DNA of 64,000 nt from the NCBI RefSeq assembly GCF_013426205.1, contig NC_089425.1:1240001-1304000 (forward strand). The letters are read 5' to 3'. Positions 24,486-51,002 of the stretch are shown piece by piece. The position numbers and the translations under genes were made by a program. Origin of the DNA: Metarhizium brunneum (Eukaryota; Ascomycota; Sordariomycetes; Hypocreales; Clavicipitaceae). Position 1 is the first letter of the stretch. Every line of letters starts with the position of its first letter. The notes below the pieces were generated by a model. It was given only the letters and a program-made list of their open reading frames with translations, was not told where the DNA came from and ran no database searches.

Positions 24486-25764
24486 ATGTTGGTTGCTGGG
24501 GGCTGGTGGTGATGAAGTTGAGCTTCAATGTTGGGGACTTGCATCTGCATTTGGTAATGGTAACTAGTAACTACAGGGTATCTTGTGAATACAGAGCAGT
24601 GGAGCGTGCTGAGTTCTAACCACCACAGAGCATTTAAAAAAAGACAGATTGGCAATGTAACGTAATGTAATGTACTACACGTATTTCTCATTACCTTCCG
24701 GTAAAGGCTCGTCCGTGACCTTGAGGTTGCGTTATGTTGTGGTGTGAATGACGACTATGGCCGACTGTTCAATTTGGGCAAGTAAACCGGCTCTGTCTCG
24801 CTAGTCTTAGTCTGATTGAGCCGAGTATCCGGGCACCTGCTAGTTTCGGCAGAGGGTCCAGGCCTCGCCCACTGCCATTGGCCGATCACTTGGTTAGTTT
24901 GAACGTAGGACCAGCCTTACGTGGGCAATTACAAACCTCCACGCGCCAAGGAACGCGGGTCACGATCCTTTGGCTTCCGTTCTAATCGAGTGAAGAAGGG
25001 AGCCAGCACAAAGTGAAAATGGCACAATGACGGGCGCCCACTATTGGCCCTACCACCGGCATATAGTAGCGCAAGGCCTCAACTCTCCGCAGAGTGCCCA
25101 GACATTGAACCACAAAATGGGGCCCTCGTATCCGACAAGTGCCCTACCGGACCTTTCACGACTCCATATAGATTTGTGACGAGTTGGCACGAGTACGCTG
25201 GATGGGCTCACTGATGAATGGGATTTCTCCAAAGGCAAGCACTGGCGTGACTACCGTATATGGGCAGTTGTTTGACGATATTCACTTGTCTTGCCATTTC
25301 GCAACGGACCCAACAGGGTTCTCGGTGAAGCACTGCCATCGTGGTATCGCGCTTTGACCGGTGTGTTGTTATATTGACCCAATTGCACAAGCGCAAGCGT
25401 CCGGCCGCGAATGCGCTTATACAGGCTTGGAATCGGCCAAGTTCCGCATGTACGACCTATCTCACGCTCACCTTCCTGATCGATTAGGTAGTTACGATAA
25501 CACGAGGCATACAGGTGACGAGAGAACTGGATAACATCAATACGCCATACTTACCTGCTCAATAGAGCTAGCTACCACAGTCAACGTTGCATATCGTGTG
25601 AAAAGAAGCAATGCTGTATTCGCCAACATGGAGTCGAACCTCGCCTGCGATTTTTCTATAAATGCGCCCGCTACCCATCGGACACAGTCTGAGAAGAAGA
25701 TATATAACAAACACCAGACATCAAATACATCTCATATCTTGACTAGAGCTTGTGTTTCTACACC
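24486..25764. other. 1.3-kb intergenic region; protease promoter at right end
   Basis: No gene was recognised. A TATA-like element tataaat lies at 25657-25663, about 108 bp before the protease ATG. Confidence 0.45.
25657..25663 (+). promoter_or_regulatory. TATA-like element upstream of the aspartic protease
   Basis: tataaat about 108 bp before the start codon, a spacing usual for fungal secreted-enzyme genes. Sequence match only. Confidence 0.45.
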
Positions 25765-33299: not shown

Positions 33300-34237
33300 G
33301 TACTAACAAGAGATGATGAAGTTAAAGCGGACCATGTTGACGGGATGGCTGTGTTGGTGTATTGCTATTGCTGTTACTTTTATTAGTAACAGTAAAAAAA
33401 GGACAAAGCCTCAATAGCTCCCTTATTTAGAGCTCGAATACCCAAATTGCCTCTGGCCTGGCATATTTCGAGTCATGCTGAGATGGGATACCCTCTTCGG
33501 CGCATCACGTCAGTTGTCTGCTGCTGAGTGGTCATGATAATCGCATAAGTGTTTCGTCTGATTCGGAATCGTACGACTGATCACTTGCTTCTTTCCAAAA
33601 GAGGAGCCTCTTTGCCTTGCCGGCCAACTTTAAAACAAGGTTGGATATTCTCCGTACCGAGCATTGCAGGAGGCAGGGCTACCCAAGCCGGGAGCCCCAA
33701 GCTGGGAGCGAAGGCGTACTCTGTTTCAGAAAGAGCGGTTGAGTCAGGCGAGTTAAGCGCCCGGCAGCTGGGCCGGTAAATAAATGCGCAGTGGAGCGTG
33801 ACGGGACCAACAAGGCGTATTCCAGGTGGTCATCTTCTTCTAGGCAAGGCAGATTCGAAGCAAGACATGCCGTTCCCTGGCGACTACCAACATCTCGACT
33901 CCGCCATTCACCATGCGTACCAGACTTTGGAATTGTCAGGTATACAACACTTGTATCAATTTCAATAATTTTAGAAAAAAAGATCAGAAGAAAGGGCTAG
34001 ATGATCATGCAAGACATCTGGGGACCCTATGTTTTGGCTGATACACTTATCCCCACAGCACTTATGCCTACAGCTCCCAATAGAGGGAAGCCAAGCGAAA
34101 AAACTCGGGGCGCTTCAAGCCAATTGCATCGAGTCTGGCACACACGTGCATGCCTCCAGCCGCAACGCCTGACTAGTCCTTGCACAATGTAAAGAAAGAA
34201 AAGGACGAGCAGAAAAAAATTCGATTTTAAAAATGGC
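33300..34237. other. Gene-poor stretch
   Basis: No coding or RNA gene was recognised. A T-run begins just right of 34237, at the U6 terminator. Confidence 0.35.
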
Positions 34238-34245
34238 AAAAAAAA
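34238..34245 (-). terminator. Pol III terminator of the U6 gene
   Basis: Run of eight T on the minus strand right after AGCTAAACA. Confidence 0.8.
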
Positions 34246-34407
34246 TGTTTAGCTTCTCTTTGATTGAGCGTGTCATCCTTAGTGCAGGGGCCATGCTAAT
34301 CTTCTCTGTGAGTGTGTTAGTAACAGAGTTCGAACCATCAACCTTATGGAGGAGGAGTTGTGGGTACCGACCTGTATCGTTTCAAATAAACCAAATGCCC
34401 GAAGGCG
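34241..34407 (-). ncRNA. U6: U6 spliceosomal snRNA gene with an mRNA-type intron
   Basis: Catalytic RNA of the spliceosome. Minus-strand exon 1 is about 34407-34372 (5' hairpin GCC-TTCG-GGC, then TTTGAAACGATACAG); exon 2 is about 34305-34241 (AGAAGATTAGCATGGCCCC, then TGCACTAAGGATGACACGC, ending AGCTAAAC before a T8 run). Joined, the conserved ACAGAGA box and AGC triad are perfect and the RNA is about 101 nt. The 66-nt intron (34371-34306) starts GTCGGT, holds TACTAAC (34322-34316) and ends CACAG. Inside it is ggttcgaactc, a match to the Pol III B-box. A TATA box (34436-34428) lies about 29 bp upstream of the inferred start. 5' and 3' ends are approximate. Confidence 0.93.
34326..34336 (-). 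promoter_or_regulatory. Intronic Pol III B-box of the U6 gene
   Basis: ggttcgaactc on the minus strand, within the U6 intron. It agrees with the tRNA-type B-box GGTTCGANTCC. In fission yeast the U6 intron is known to contain a B-box too; function here is inferred from that. Confidence 0.7.
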
Positions 34408-34427: not shown

Positions 34428-34436
34428 CTTTATATA
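34428..34436 (-). promoter_or_regulatory. TATA box of the U6 gene
   Basis: tatataaag on the minus strand, about 25-30 bp before the U6 5' end, the standard position for Pol III U6 promoters in fungi. Confidence 0.7.
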
Positions 34437-39564: not shown

Positions 39565-40319
39565 AGTCATGGGGCTAGTCTCAGAGTGTAAATTACCCTT
39601 CGTTTTTCACGCACACCCTCTGGCCTTCCTTGCGAATCGTTAGCAAAGATGGGCCAAAAGGCTCTGCAATCGGACAGTCAAGTCGTGTCCATCGCCTTCG
39701 AGAAGGCAATGGGGCGGCGATGAAGCTTTAGAGACATAGATATATAGAGTGCGGCCACTAAACTATGTATATTTTGTGGCAAGTCGATTTCAAACATGGC
39801 GTGATAGTACTTAATTTGATAATGTCTGAGAATATACGAGTCCTTGATGCCGCGACTTTGAAATATGTCTCGGCCCTCTCCTAGACCAGAGCCGTGTAAG
39901 TCGGTTTACGCTAAGCCCAATTGGGAACCCCATAACCCCACCTCAGCAGCTGCATGCGCACCCACTTCGTCACACCGGAACCAAAAAGTCGAGGTGGATG
40001 CTGCCATAAATTTTACCGTCGTCGCCAACCATAATTCCGAACTTGACGCCAATATTTCTAGCCCACGTCCAAGAGTCATCGCTCGCGACACCCCTCTCGG
40101 AGGGCGCAAATCATTCACTTCCTTTGCTTCTAGCCATTCGTGTGTTTCTGTCATGTCGCTCGGGCTTGTTCTGCGATCGCAAACTGCGGCTGCCTTGTGA
40201 GACCCCTCCGAGTCCGAGTCTCAACCACGCCGCCAGCACCAGCTCAACGTCAAGGCCAAGCCACGAAAGCCTCGTCCTTCTCGCACGGCGCGACACCAAG
40301 CGACGCTCTACGACTCAAC
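39565..40319. other. Intergenic, RPC160 promoter side
   Basis: 755 bp. The frame of the polymerase gene is open back to about 40140, but its first ATG is 40320, where similarity to other RPC160 proteins begins. Confidence 0.45.
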
Positions 40320-43300
40320 ATGATCCACTCGACAGAGGGTCCTGTCAAGCAGCAGCTTGAGGACAAGCTGCCCAAGCGCTTCAAGGGCATCAAGTTTGGC
40401 ATTCAGTCGAACCAGGACATTGCCAACCAAGCCGTCCTTGAGGTCTCGGACCGACTGCTGTACGATATTGAAAACAACCGAGCTCCATATCGCCATGGGC
40501 CTTTGGATCCGAGGCTGGGAACCTCGAGCAAGAGCGGCAAATGCGACACTTGCCATGACTCTCTACAGAACTGTATTGGGCACTTTGGCCACGTCAGATT
40601 GCCTCTGCCGGCCTTTCATATTGGCTATTTGCGATTCATCATGTCCATTCTGCAGGAGATTTGCAAGGATTGTGGAAGAGTGTTATTGGAAGAGCCCGAA
40701 CGGCGGTCCTTCCTCAAGGAGCTGAGACGGCCGATGGACAACCTCCGCCGTACGCAGATTTGCAAAAGAATCAACGAGCAGTGCCGCAAGTCCAAGACTT
40801 GCCCCTACTGTGGATCGGTGAATGGCCAGATTCGAAAAATCGGCGTCCTCAAGCTCACGCATGACAAATTTTCCTTTTATAATAAATCTACCGCCGCCAA
40901 GAAGGTTCCTCCCGAAAGCAAAGTCAAGTTCGACGACTCCTTCTCCCAAGCAAAGCGCGAGAATCCCGAGCTCGAGAAGCACCTCCGCAAGGCCATGGAG
41001 GATCTGAACCCTCTCAGGGTATTGAACCTCTTCAAAATGATAAGCCCAACGGACTGCGAGCTGCTTGGTCTTGATCCAGCCGAGGGACGTCCAGAAATGT
41101 TCATTTGGCAATTTGTGCCTGCGCCCCCGGTGTGTATTCGACCCTCGGTGGCACAGGATAATGCCAGCAACGAAGATGATCTTACAACCAAATTGGCCGA
41201 TATTGTTTGGGTGAGCGGCATGATCCGATCAGCCCTACAAAAAGGCTCTCCCATCCAAACAATCATGGAACAGTGGGAGTACCTGCAGACTCAGATAGCC
41301 ATGTACGTCAACAGTGATGTTCCAGGTCTGCAGCAGCCAGGATTTGGCAAATCCACCAGAGGTTTCTGCCAGCGATTAAAGGGAAAACAAGGTCGGTTTA
41401 GAGGTAATTTGTCCGGAAAGCGAGTCGATTTCTCTGGCCGTACCGTTATTTCGCCCGACCCCAACTTGGGGATCGACCAAGTTGCTGTCCCCCAGCTTGT
41501 CGCCAAAAACTTGACATATCCCGAAAAGGTCAATCGGCAAAACATCGAAAAGCTACGCCAATGTGTCCGAAACGGCTGCGATGTGTGGCCTGGAGCGCAG
41601 GGAATCCTCAAGAAAGAAGACGACAGTTACTACAAATTCAATCTACGCTTTGGTAATAGAGATTTGGCGGCCAAGCAACTTAGCTATGGCGATATTGTCG
41701 AACGCCACCTCGAGGACGGTGACGTGGTGCTCTTCAACCGTCAACCCTCCCTTCACAAGCTCAGTATTATGAGCCATCTCGCCAAGATTCGACCCTGGAG
41801 GACATTTCGTCTCAATGAGTGTGTGTGCAACCCGTACAATGCTGATTTTGATGGTGATGAAATGAACCTCCACGTTCCTCAGACAGAAGAGGCGAGGGCA
41901 GAGGCTATCAATCTCATGGGCGTCAAGTACAATCTAGCTACCCCCAAGAACGGAGAACCGATTATTGCTGCAACGCAAGATTTCATCACAGCTGCTTTCT
42001 TGCTAAGTAGTAAGGATCGATTCTTTGATCGCAAATCGTTTTCATACATCTGCATGCACATGATGGAGCAGGGAACTAAAATCGAGATTCCTCCTCCCGC
42101 TATTGTGGCACCAAAGGCCCTGTGGACTGGAAAACAAATATTCAGCATCATGATGAGACCAAACAAGGACTGTTCCGTCAAGATCAACCTTGACGCAAAG
42201 TGTCGAGCATACAAAGCGCGCCCCGGGCAATGCCCTGATATGGACCCCAATGATGGCTGGCTTGTTGTTCGCAATTCAGAGGTCATGTGTGGTCGTATGG
42301 ACAAGTCAACCGTCGGATCTGGAAAGAAGGATTCCATCTTCTATGTTATTCTTCGAGATTTCGGCCCAGACGAGGCAGTTATTGCCATGAATCGGCTAGC
42401 CAAGCTTTGCGCCAGAGCGCTCACGAACCGAGGATTTTCTATTGGTGTTGGCGACGTCTTCCCTACAGAGACTCTGAATGTCGAGAAAGAGAACTTGGTA
42501 TCGACCGCCTATAAGATGTGTGACGATCTTATCGAGACTTTTAAGCAAGGCAAACTAGACAAGGCTCCGGGCTGTAACATGGAGCAGACTCTGGAAAACT
42601 CCATCTCTGGTATTCTCAGCAAGGTTCGACAGCAGGCCGGTTCTTACTGTATTGATACTCTGAGTCGAAACAACGCTCCCCTCATCATGGCGCAGTCTGG
42701 CTCCAAGGGCTCCGATATTAACGTTGCTCAAATGGTGGCCGTTGTCGGTCAGCAAATTATTGGTGGGCAGCGAGTTCCTGATGGGTTCCAAGACAGAAGT
42801 TTGCCTCATTTCCACAAGAACGCTCGCCAACCCCCCTCTAAAGGCTTCGTCAAGAATAGTTTCTACACGGGATTATTTCCCACGGAATTCTTATTCCACG
42901 CCATTTCTGGTCGTGAAGGTCTGGTCGATACTGCTGTCAAGACTGCTGAAACTGGTTATATGTCGCGACGACTGATGAAGTCACTGGAGGATTTATCAAC
43001 TCAGTATGATGACACTGTCAGAACATCAGGAGGTGGCATTGTTCAGTTCCAGTTTGGAGCTGACAAGCTCGACCCTGTTGACATGGAGGGCTCCGCTGAG
43101 CCCGTCAACTTTAAGCGAACTTGGAGTCATGCCGAAACACTTACCTGGGATAATGAGGAGGCCGCCATGACCCCCAGCGAAATCAGGGCATTCTGTGACT
43201 CCATGCTTGCTGTTGAGCGAAAGCGGTTTCCCAGGCATGGGCTAGCATATGGCGAGAAGCTTGACTACGAAGACACAACGGATTACGGTATTGATGAGCA

Positions 43301-44663
43301 CGAAGGTGCCCGACGCTTCCTGAAGACCATTGAAAACCATGTAGAAGGATTGGCTTCCAAGCTCGAGAAGGTCCGAAAGCTGGCTGGATTTGATGGCGAC
43401 AAGATGCTCAGGGCCACTGCTCAAGATCATGCTGACCGTACTGCCAAGGTGACGGCAACAACGTTGCGGCTCTTTATCAAGATGTGTCTTGAAAAGTACA
43501 AGAAAGCCCACGTGGAACCTGGCCATGCTGTCGGAGCCGTTGGTGCTCAGTCTATTGGTGAACCTGGTACGCAGATGACGCTGAAAACTTTCCATTTTGC
43601 TGGTGTTGCCGGTATGAGTATCACACAGGGTGTACCGCGTATCAAGGAAATCATCAATGCCTCCAAGAATATTAGCACGCCGGTTATTACATGCCCTCTG
43701 ATGAACGATAAACAAATTGAGGCCGCAAGAGTCGTCAAAGGCCGTATCGAAAAGACGTACATCTTGGACGTGCTACATTTTGTCGAAGACGAATGGCGTC
43801 CTGACGAGGGCAACGTGGTACTACAAATTGACCGAAGCGCTCTGTCAGACCTACACCTGGGCATTGGTATTTATGACATTGCCGAATCCATCTGCAAACA
43901 GCGAAAACTCAAGATTCCTCGGGAAGACCTGTCTGTCTATGGCGAGAGGATCGTCATTCGGGTACGGGATGCAAGTGATATGCCCGCCAGAAAGACGACA
44001 CGTACCAAGCCAGCCCTCGAGGACAGCGGCGACATGTTACTACGAGCCAACTTCTTGCGTCGCGCGCTCCCGCACGTCCCCATTTCTGGGTATTCGGAGG
44101 CTACTCGTGCCATTATTCAAACATCGGAGCAGAACACCCACATGGTGCTTGTCGAAGGTTATGGATTACGCGAGTGCATGACTACAGAGGGAGTCATTGG
44201 CACCCAAACCCGGTCAAACAATGTCATGGAGTGTCGTGACGTGCTTGGTATCGAAGCTGCACGAAGCACCATTGCTGATGAGATCAGCCAGGTCATGGGT
44301 GACATGGGTATCGACCCTCGACATATGCAGCTTCTTGCCGACGTCATGACGTACAAGGGAGAGGTGCTAGGTATCACGCGATTTGGTCTCTCCAAGATGC
44401 GCGACAGTGTATTGCAGCTGGCATCGTTTGAAAAGACGCCGGACCACTTGTTCGAGGCTGCGGCGGGTATGAAGACGGACCAGATTGAGGGTGTAAGTGA
44501 GTGTATTATCATGGGACAGACGATGGCTGTGGGCACGGGCGCATTCCAGGTTGTACGACGGCTGGGGATCCGACCGGGGGACATGGCGCAGAAAAAGACA
44601 CTATTCGAGGATGCGTGGAATTCGGAAGTGAGGGGGAAGAAGAAGGTGAGGAGGAGAGCATAG
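40320..44663 (+). CDS. RPO31: RNA polymerase III largest subunit (RPC160/C160)
   Basis: Catalytic largest subunit of Pol III, which makes tRNA, 5S and U6. Intronless, 1447 residues (yeast 1460). The N-terminal zinc clamp is CDTC...CIGHFGH, with a second metal site CKDC...CPYC. The active-site metal-A loop NADFDGDEMN lies at about residues 507-516. The bridge-helix/trigger-loop region shows GREGLVDTAVKTAETGYMSRRL, then GAVGAQSIGEPGTQMTLKTFHFAG. There is no heptad CTD; it ends GKKKVRRRA, which separates it from Pol II RPB1, and FGIQSNQDIANQAVLEVSDR at the start is Pol III-like. Start ATG 40320 matches the family's usual N-terminus. An intronless 4.3-kb gene is notable among intron-rich neighbours. 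Confidence 0.97.
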   Translation: MIHSTEGPVKQQLEDKLPKRFKGIKFGIQSNQDIANQAVLEVSDRLLYDIENNRAPYRHGPLDPRLGTSSKSGKCDTCHDSLQNCIGHFGHVRLPLPAFHIGYLRFIMSILQEICKDCGRVLLEEPERRSFLKELRRPMDNLRRTQICKRINEQCRKSKTCPYCGSVNGQIRKIGVLKLTHDKFSFYNKSTAAKKVPPESKVKFDDSFSQAKRENPELEKHLRKAMEDLNPLRVLNLFKMISPTDCELLGLDPAEGRPEMFIWQFVPAPPVCIRPSVAQDNASNEDDLTTKLADIVWVSGMIRSALQKGSPIQTIMEQWEYLQTQIAMYVNSDVPGLQQPGFGKSTRGFCQRLKGKQGRFRGNLSGKRVDFSGRTVISPDPNLGIDQVAVPQLVAKNLTYPEKVNRQNIEKLRQCVRNGCDVWPGAQGILKKEDDSYYKFNLRFGNRDLAAKQLSYGDIVERHLEDGDVVLFNRQPSLHKLSIMSHLAKIRPWRTFRLNECVCNPYNADFDGDEMNLHVPQTEEARAEAINLMGVKYNLATPKNGEPIIAATQDFITAAFLLSSKDRFFDRKSFSYICMHMMEQGTKIEIPPPAIVAPKALWTGKQIFSIMMRPNKDCSVKINLDAKCRAYKARPGQCPDMDPNDGWLVVRNSEVMCGRMDKSTVGSGKKDSIFYVILRDFGPDEAVIAMNRLAKLCARALTNRGFSIGVGDVFPTETLNVEKENLVSTAYKMCDDLIETFKQGKLDKAPGCNMEQTLENSISGILSKVRQQAGSYCIDTLSRNNAPLIMAQSGSKGSDINVAQMVAVVGQQIIGGQRVPDGFQDRSLPHFHKNARQPPSKGFVKNSFYTGLFPTEFLFHAISGREGLVDTAVKTAETGYMSRRLMKSLEDLSTQYDDTVRTSGGGIVQFQFGADKLDPVDMEGSAEPVNFKRTWSHAETLTWDNEEAAMTPSEIRAFCDSMLAVERKRFPRHGLAYGEKLDYEDTTDYGIDEHEGARRFLKTIENHVEGLASKLEKVRKLAGFDGDKMLRATAQDHADRTAKVTATTLRLFIKMCLEKYKKAHVEPGHAVGAVGAQSIGEPGTQMTLKTFHFAGVAGMSITQGVPRIKEIINASKNISTPVITCPLMNDKQIEAARVVKGRIEKTYILDVLHFVEDEWRPDEGNVVLQIDRSALSDLHLGIGIYDIAESICKQRKLKIPREDLSVYGERIVIRVRDASDMPARKTTRTKPALEDSGDMLLRANFLRRALPHVPISGYSEATRAIIQTSEQNTHMVLVEGYGLRECMTTEGVIGTQTRSNNVMECRDVLGIEAARSTIADEISQVMGDMGIDPRHMQLLADVMTYKGEVLGITRFGLSKMRDSVLQLASFEKTPDHLFEAAAGMKTDQIEGVSECIIMGQTMAVGTGAFQVVRRLGIRPGDMAQKKTLFEDAWNSEVRGKKKVRRRA

Positions 44664-46475: not shown

Positions 46476-46697
46476 GGCTGTGACGACTGCGATAATAGTA
46501 GGTAGGTAGGTAGTAGGTAGTATGATTGATTGTGTTGATTTTTCCAAGGTTGGGCAAAAAATAAAAAAACTAAAAATTACATACAACACTGGGTATTCGC
46601 TGGTCGTCACCGACCCAACTACTAATCCAGCGCTCGCTAGGTTATTCAGGGAGATCAGACGGGATCCTAAGTTTTGCTAGCGGCTGTGGTCGTATGT
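46476..46697 (-). repeat. Copy 1 of a duplicated block holding 5S rRNA plus its 3' flank
   Basis: The stretch shares the order gacg.ctgc.ataat, tetranucleotide tract, ttgatttttcca.ggttg.gcaaaaaata, then the 5S sequence with 50791-51002. Identity is high inside the RNA and lower in the flank, where the tetranucleotide differs (taggtagg here, gactgact there). Confidence 0.8.
46579..46697 (-). rRNA. 5S rRNA: 5S ribosomal RNA (copy 1)
   Basis: 119 nt on the minus strand, ACATACGACC...TGTTGTATGT. The ends pair as helix I, and the internal blocks TTAGTAGTTGGGTCGGTGACGACC and GCGAATACC match the conserved 3' half of Pezizomycotina 5S RNA. CAGCCGCTAG and CTAGCGAGCGCTG can pair as helix II. A Pol III T-rich tail (aatttttagtttttttattttttg) follows. 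It differs from copy 2 at three positions only, all transitions. Dispersed 5S genes are the rule in filamentous ascomycetes. A pseudogene cannot be excluded by sequence alone. Confidence 0.92.
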
Positions 46698-50790: not shown

Positions 50791-51002
50791 GGCTGCGACG
50801 CCTGCAATAATCGTGTGACTGACTGACTGACTGTCTTGATTTTTCCACGGTTGAGCAAAAAATAATAAATAACTAAAAAAATTACATACAACACTAGGTA
50901 TTCGCTGGTCGTCACCGACCCAACTACTAATCCAGCGCTCGCTAGGTTATTCAGGGAGATCAGACGGGATCCTAAGCTTTGCTAGCGGCTATGGTCGTAT
51001 GT
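50791..51002 (-). repeat. Copy 2 of the duplicated 5S block
   Basis: Partner of 46476-46697, same orientation; see that entry for the shared order of blocks. Confidence 0.8.
50884..51002 (-). rRNA. 5S rRNA: 5S ribosomal RNA (copy 2)
   Basis: 119 nt on the minus strand, with the same conserved 5S blocks and helix I ends as copy 1, three transitions apart from it. It is followed by a T-rich Pol III terminator region (aatttttttagttatttattattttttgc). Its 5' start ACATACGACCATAG agrees exactly with the start of Neurospora-type 5S RNA, which copy 1 (ACCACAG) does not. Confidence 0.93.

Follow-up and report, generated by a model that had tools for sequence, protein, structure and literature searches.

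The closest described counterpart of the gene studied here is the U6 snRNA gene of Schizosaccharomyces pombe (Tani & Ohshima 1989; Frendewey et al. 1990). It is a Pol III gene with an mRNA-type intron near the catalytic nucleotides, and this intron contains a B box, a feature of Schizosaccharomyces U6 introns from which the 1990 article takes its title (cited in PMC10484740). This precedent was tested: the S. pombe U6 transcript is reported to be made by Pol III and its intron to be taken out by the spliceosome (PMC8917221). Lsm2-8 is described as binding the RNA before splicing and capping as following splicing, and reverse splicing close to the catalytic nucleotides is regarded as the source of the intron (PMC10484740). 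Multiple intron insertions in fungal U6 genes are announced in the title of Canzler, Stadler & Hertel (2016), a paper also cited for the statement that fungal U6 often has multiple introns.

Within Hypocreales, a Trichoderma reesei 'U6 snRNA promoter with 1st intron' (Bodie et al. 2021) is listed for guide RNA expression in a row of a 2022 review table and, to judge from the wording of this table, intron and promoter stay together (PMC9518982). T. reesei is reported to have two U6 genes (PMC10170752), whereas one was found in Metarhizium. Fungal U3 snoRNA genes offer a further parallel: they, too, encode a structured RNA and have spliceosomal introns, with RCTRAC branch sites and GT-AG ends. 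However, the RNA is another one, and section 9 of PMC5832005 describes no intron-borne B-box.

The window analyzed here is a stretch of 64,000 nucleotides from the insect-killing fungus Metarhizium brunneum. On its minus strand, positions 34406-34372 and 34305-34241 together make up a U6 snRNA, interrupted by an insert of 66 nt. Read from 34436 to 34238, this strand carries in order a TATA box, exon 1, the insert, exon 2 and a T8 run. An uninterrupted U6 sequence, without the insert, would read ...GATACAGAGAAGATTAGC. The features of the locus are the following.

34429..34436, minus strand: TATA box TATATAAA, a motif read directly; by computation, its start precedes the first base of the U6 5' stem by 30 bp.
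34372..34406, minus strand: U6 exon 1, 35 nt, from the 5' stem-loop GCC-UUCG-GGC to ...GAUACAG, with a gapless junction against the comparison U6 once spliced; the exact 5' end (34406) is the probable one.
34383..34393, minus strand: A-box-like TGGTTTATTTG, inside exon 1, position computed; a putative match to the A-box consensus.
34306..34371, minus strand: intron, 66 nt, GT...AG, between ACAG and AGA of ACAGAGA, from the sequence and the junction alignment.
34326..34336, minus strand: B-box-like GGTTCGAACTC, inside the intron, 10.3 bits on the tRNA matrix.
34316..34322, minus strand: TACTAAC, a perfect branch-site consensus, whose branch A precedes the last intron base by 11 nt.
34241..34305, minus strand: U6 exon 2, from AGAAGATTAGC to the T run, including the AGC triad and the 3' domain, by Rfam match and alignment.
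34238..34245, minus strand: T8 run, read from the sequence, likely the Pol III terminator.

The identity of the gene was assayed with the U6 covariance model of Rfam (RF00026), which matched positions 34344-34241 with 62.1 bits, despite the insert, against a gathering threshold of 44. Exon 2 aligned with two single-base inserts only. The first 40 or so positions of the model were placed on intron sequence, because the model does not jump the insert. After splicing, the ACAGAGA box, the AGC triad, the 5' stem-loop and the 3' T run are all present.

The sole comparison sequence obtained was the uninterrupted U6 of locus L044, which scores 104.9 bits with the same model. This eukaryotic U6 (L044, 2255-2359) lies on a contig labelled as a Verrucomicrobiaceae MAG. 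Because it carries a eukaryotic-type U6, the contig is probably eukaryotic contamination. In the genome contigs searched for U6, this eukaryote-like, uninterrupted gene was the only one and no other fungal U6 was seen. Viral contigs yielded 0 loci when searched for a comparison U6, and likewise 0 for the U6 intron.

Aligned to the L044 U6, the spliced string scored 114.4 and the unspliced one 86.5. Stretches of all lengths from 0 to 109 nt were taken out at every offset, and the best alignment was obtained with 66 nt. Offsets 31 to 35 tie for this length, because ACAG is repeated at both ends of the insert, and the GT-AG ends single out offset 35. The spliced U6 is not identical to that of L044: exon 1 and the 3' domain both show differences, of the kind expected for eukaryotes that are far apart. 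The first-pass annotation had proposed a U6 snRNA gene in a hypocrealean host, with a spliceosomal-type intron inside ACAGAGA marked by GT-AG ends and TACTAAC. The Rfam match and the junction alignment uphold the gene, the best removal length agrees with the intron, and the host is as proposed.

The GT-AG ends, the branch consensus and the branch-to-acceptor spacing of the insert are those of a U2-type intron. In fungi, a branch consensus RCTRAC and a spacing of 6-36 nt are reported (PMC5832005). Among the 469 GT...AG 66-mers on both strands of the window, a single one has TACTAAC 4-16 nt before its end, and this is the U6 intron itself. At free length, 10 intron-like strings with TACTAAC were observed in 187 kb, the U6 intron included, for 11.2 expected from shuffles. 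Such strings are therefore frequent by chance, and the weight of the argument rests on the junction, not on the motif.

At two places the donor GTCGGT does not fit GTRWGT, with C at +3 and G at +4. In canonical fungal U3 donors GTRWGT is usual but not defining (88 of 136), and nearly all non-consensus ones are reported to differ at one place (PMC5832005). The donor had been described beforehand as non-consensus, and it is so at two positions, yet it ranks 20th of the 256 GTNNNN donors in predicted pairing with the U1 of this genome, in the U6 exon context (-7.4 kcal/mol, versus -11.6 for the best donor). Both U1 loci found, L010 and L011, start with the 5' end ATACTTACCTTG. Their Rfam scores (56.7 and 45.3 bits, respectively) are both under the cut-off of 69.5. 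A scan of 187 kb for the intron pattern had little power, with 316 strings observed for 287.4 expected. At the +3 base, the same low-power scan gave an excess of A (80 versus 49.5 expected) and no excess of C (75 versus 77.4). From these sequence features, we infer that the U6 precursor is spliced.

The tetranucleotide ACAG closes exon 1 and also closes the intron. Because the intron ends in ACAG, the unspliced RNA still reads ACAGAGAAG and so retains a complete ACAGAGA. The earlier claim that unspliced RNA would be inactive since the intron sits in this box is thus not borne out. Unspliced U6 would instead lose continuity with the 5' stem-loop/GAUACAG domain, and its inactivity, if real, would stem from this separation. 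The predicted fold of the unspliced RNA did not stand out from those of shuffles (z 0.31; 119 of 200 shuffles equally stable). Duplex predictions of U4 with both spliced and unspliced U6 gave no pattern readable as the known U4/U6 pairing.

An RNA with intact ACAGAGA and the whole of exon 2 might in principle need no splicing, U6 working with the insert still in place, or being transcribed from an internal start, by means of the ACAGAGA at the intron end. We consider this extremely improbable, as the GT, TACTAAC and AG signals are all there and exon 1 preserves a 5' stem-loop and GAUACAG, which in this case would be severed from the rest. Moreover, the U6 precursor of S. pombe undergoes splicing (PMC8917221). 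Removal of the intron from the Metarhizium precursor remains the reading that we prefer.

The TATA box at -30, the A-box-like sequence and its distance to the intronic B-box-like site support, at the level of sequence, a putative Pol III promoter whose B-box is intronic. The B-box was scored with a matrix derived from tRNAs of this genome. Thirty loci were taken from the 62 matches listed, and ARAGORN identified in them 26 tRNAs of differing letters, some of them near-duplicates; two Met tRNAs, in which the T-loop pattern was not found, were left out, so that the matrix rests on 24 tRNAs. With 10.3 bits, the intronic site is at the bottom of the range of these tRNA B-boxes (10.2-17.7 bits, n=24). 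About 0.006 such sites are expected by chance in the 56 positions of the intron. Both strands of the window together hold 13 sites of at least 10.3 bits, the intronic one included. Its 10th base is T, where C is found in all 24 tRNA B-boxes. The orientation of the site is ambiguous because its TTCGAA core is palindromic; on the plus strand, AGTTCGAACCA also scores (11.0 bits).

Measured from start to start, the A-box and the intronic B-box are 57 bp apart. By the same measure, the spacing in the 24 tRNA genes is 43-105 bp, with 43-45 bp in 18 of them. The first-pass annotation had placed a B-box in this intron. A B-box-like element is indeed there, at a TFIIIC-compatible distance from the A-box, but it is imperfect and low-scoring, with one constant base missing.

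This departure, together with a comparable B-like site at 33861 (same strand, 9.7 bits, 380 bp downstream of 34241), is what one would expect if the intronic B-box were incidental to the same intron-containing U6, and transcription were driven by the TATA box alone or by a downstream B-box, as in budding yeast. For SNR6 of budding yeast, an extragenic B-box past the terminator and TFIIIC-independent transcription in vitro are reported; on chromatin, however, TFIIIC is required (PMC11346459). The 33861 site is 532 bp from the A-box, whereas the intronic site falls inside both the tRNA range and the reported spacing optimum of 30-60 bp (PMC11346459). An intronic B-box is also an arrangement that exists in Schizosaccharomyces, according to the title of Frendewey et al. 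(1990). An incidental B-box is therefore rather unlikely, and an intronic B-box acting in the promoter is the interpretation that we retain.

Copies of U6 were sought in the whole assembly (37,771,916 bases, or 37.77 Mb, in 7 contigs). The Rfam U6 search, in which 47 of 2078 first-look candidates were scored, gave one match. A 19-nt U6 core had one perfect match genome-wide and six places at three mismatches, none of which reaches the Rfam U6 threshold; simple arithmetic predicts 7-8 such places by chance, versus 0 in the reversed-pattern control. The end of exon 1 was found in one perfect copy and three one-mismatch places, and the reversed control also gave three. Finally, a 191-nt DNA search of the assembly returned one match. 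A search for further copies had been proposed together with the first-pass annotation, and by Rfam, core and DNA searches no second U6, intron-free or other, was detected.

No 5.8S rRNA was found in the assembly, which is therefore probably incomplete and could lack a U6 copy. Thus, the conclusion that the genome holds no second U6 is well supported, not absolute. The same incompleteness would favour the locus being a U6 pseudogene or decoy, with the working U6 elsewhere. U6 is essential, the exons of this gene are intact, its TATA box and T8 run are present, and the three kinds of search found no other U6. We accordingly give a pseudogene next to no credence.

Altogether, the locus is very probably a functional and apparently sole U6 gene, transcribed by Pol III with an intronic B-box, its precursor being spliced and its intron being kept for the promoter. 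Pol III would transcribe pre-U6 from the TATA box, the exon-1 A-box and the intronic B-box, to which TFIIIC would bind. The major spliceosome, which would contain mature U6 from earlier transcription of this gene, would then remove the intron. Because the B-box sits within the intron, no clean intron loss would be available: precise removal from the gene would also delete a promoter element, which would explain why the intron is retained. With one U6 gene found and an intron in its catalytic box, existing U6 molecules would be needed to make each new one. This circular need for mature U6 would be softened by a partly competent unspliced pre-U6, in which ACAGAGA and all of exon 2 would allow some entry into U4/U6 or some support for splicing of its own precursor. 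We regard this as very unlikely.

The first-pass annotation had located the novelty of the gene, besides its position, in its host and in the coupling of promoter and intron. Novelty in these two respects is not supported, given T. reesei, itself in Hypocreales, and Schizosaccharomyces. As titles and table wording indicate, the intron-borne B box (1990), repeated intron gain in fungal U6 (2016) and the T. reesei promoter (2021) are already in print, and the novelty is low. The locus would be a neat example of promoter capture fixing an intron, a principle already known from Schizosaccharomyces. The two hosts, Metarhizium and Schizosaccharomyces, are only distantly related. No description of this Metarhizium U6 gene was recognised in the literature covered, which lies mostly outside subscription journals. 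In practice, guide-RNA cassettes for Metarhizium that contain the U6 upstream region alone would be without the intronic B-box.

Other genes and signals related to Pol III or to small RNAs were observed in the window and in the genome. A tRNA-type B-box, GGTTCGACTCC, scores 16.8 bits at 25630-25640 on the minus strand of the window. ARAGORN found no tRNA there, whether or not introns were allowed, and this B-box could be left over from a tRNA, serve as an additional TFIIIC site or have arisen by chance. RPC1, the gene for the largest Pol III subunit, is located at 40134-44663 on the plus strand, some 5.7 kb away from U6. The genome has another long RPC1-like gene (L045, G000:C3:1194958-1198962), which shares 75% protein identity with the window copy over 1320 residues and 98% with a Metarhizium robertsii protein (residues 114-1448 of 1448). 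To our knowledge, two long genes for the largest Pol III subunit in one fungus are unusual. At 46578-46697 and 50883-51002 of the window, on the strand of U6 (minus), lie two dispersed 5S rRNA genes, separated by about 4.2 kb. The sole U3 snoRNA match in the genome lies on the minus strand of L013, at about 1780-1870. By eye, it seems to be interrupted close to the 5' end by an intron whose donor is GTAAGC; U3 introns are reported in the vast majority of the Pezizomycotina examined (PMC5832005).
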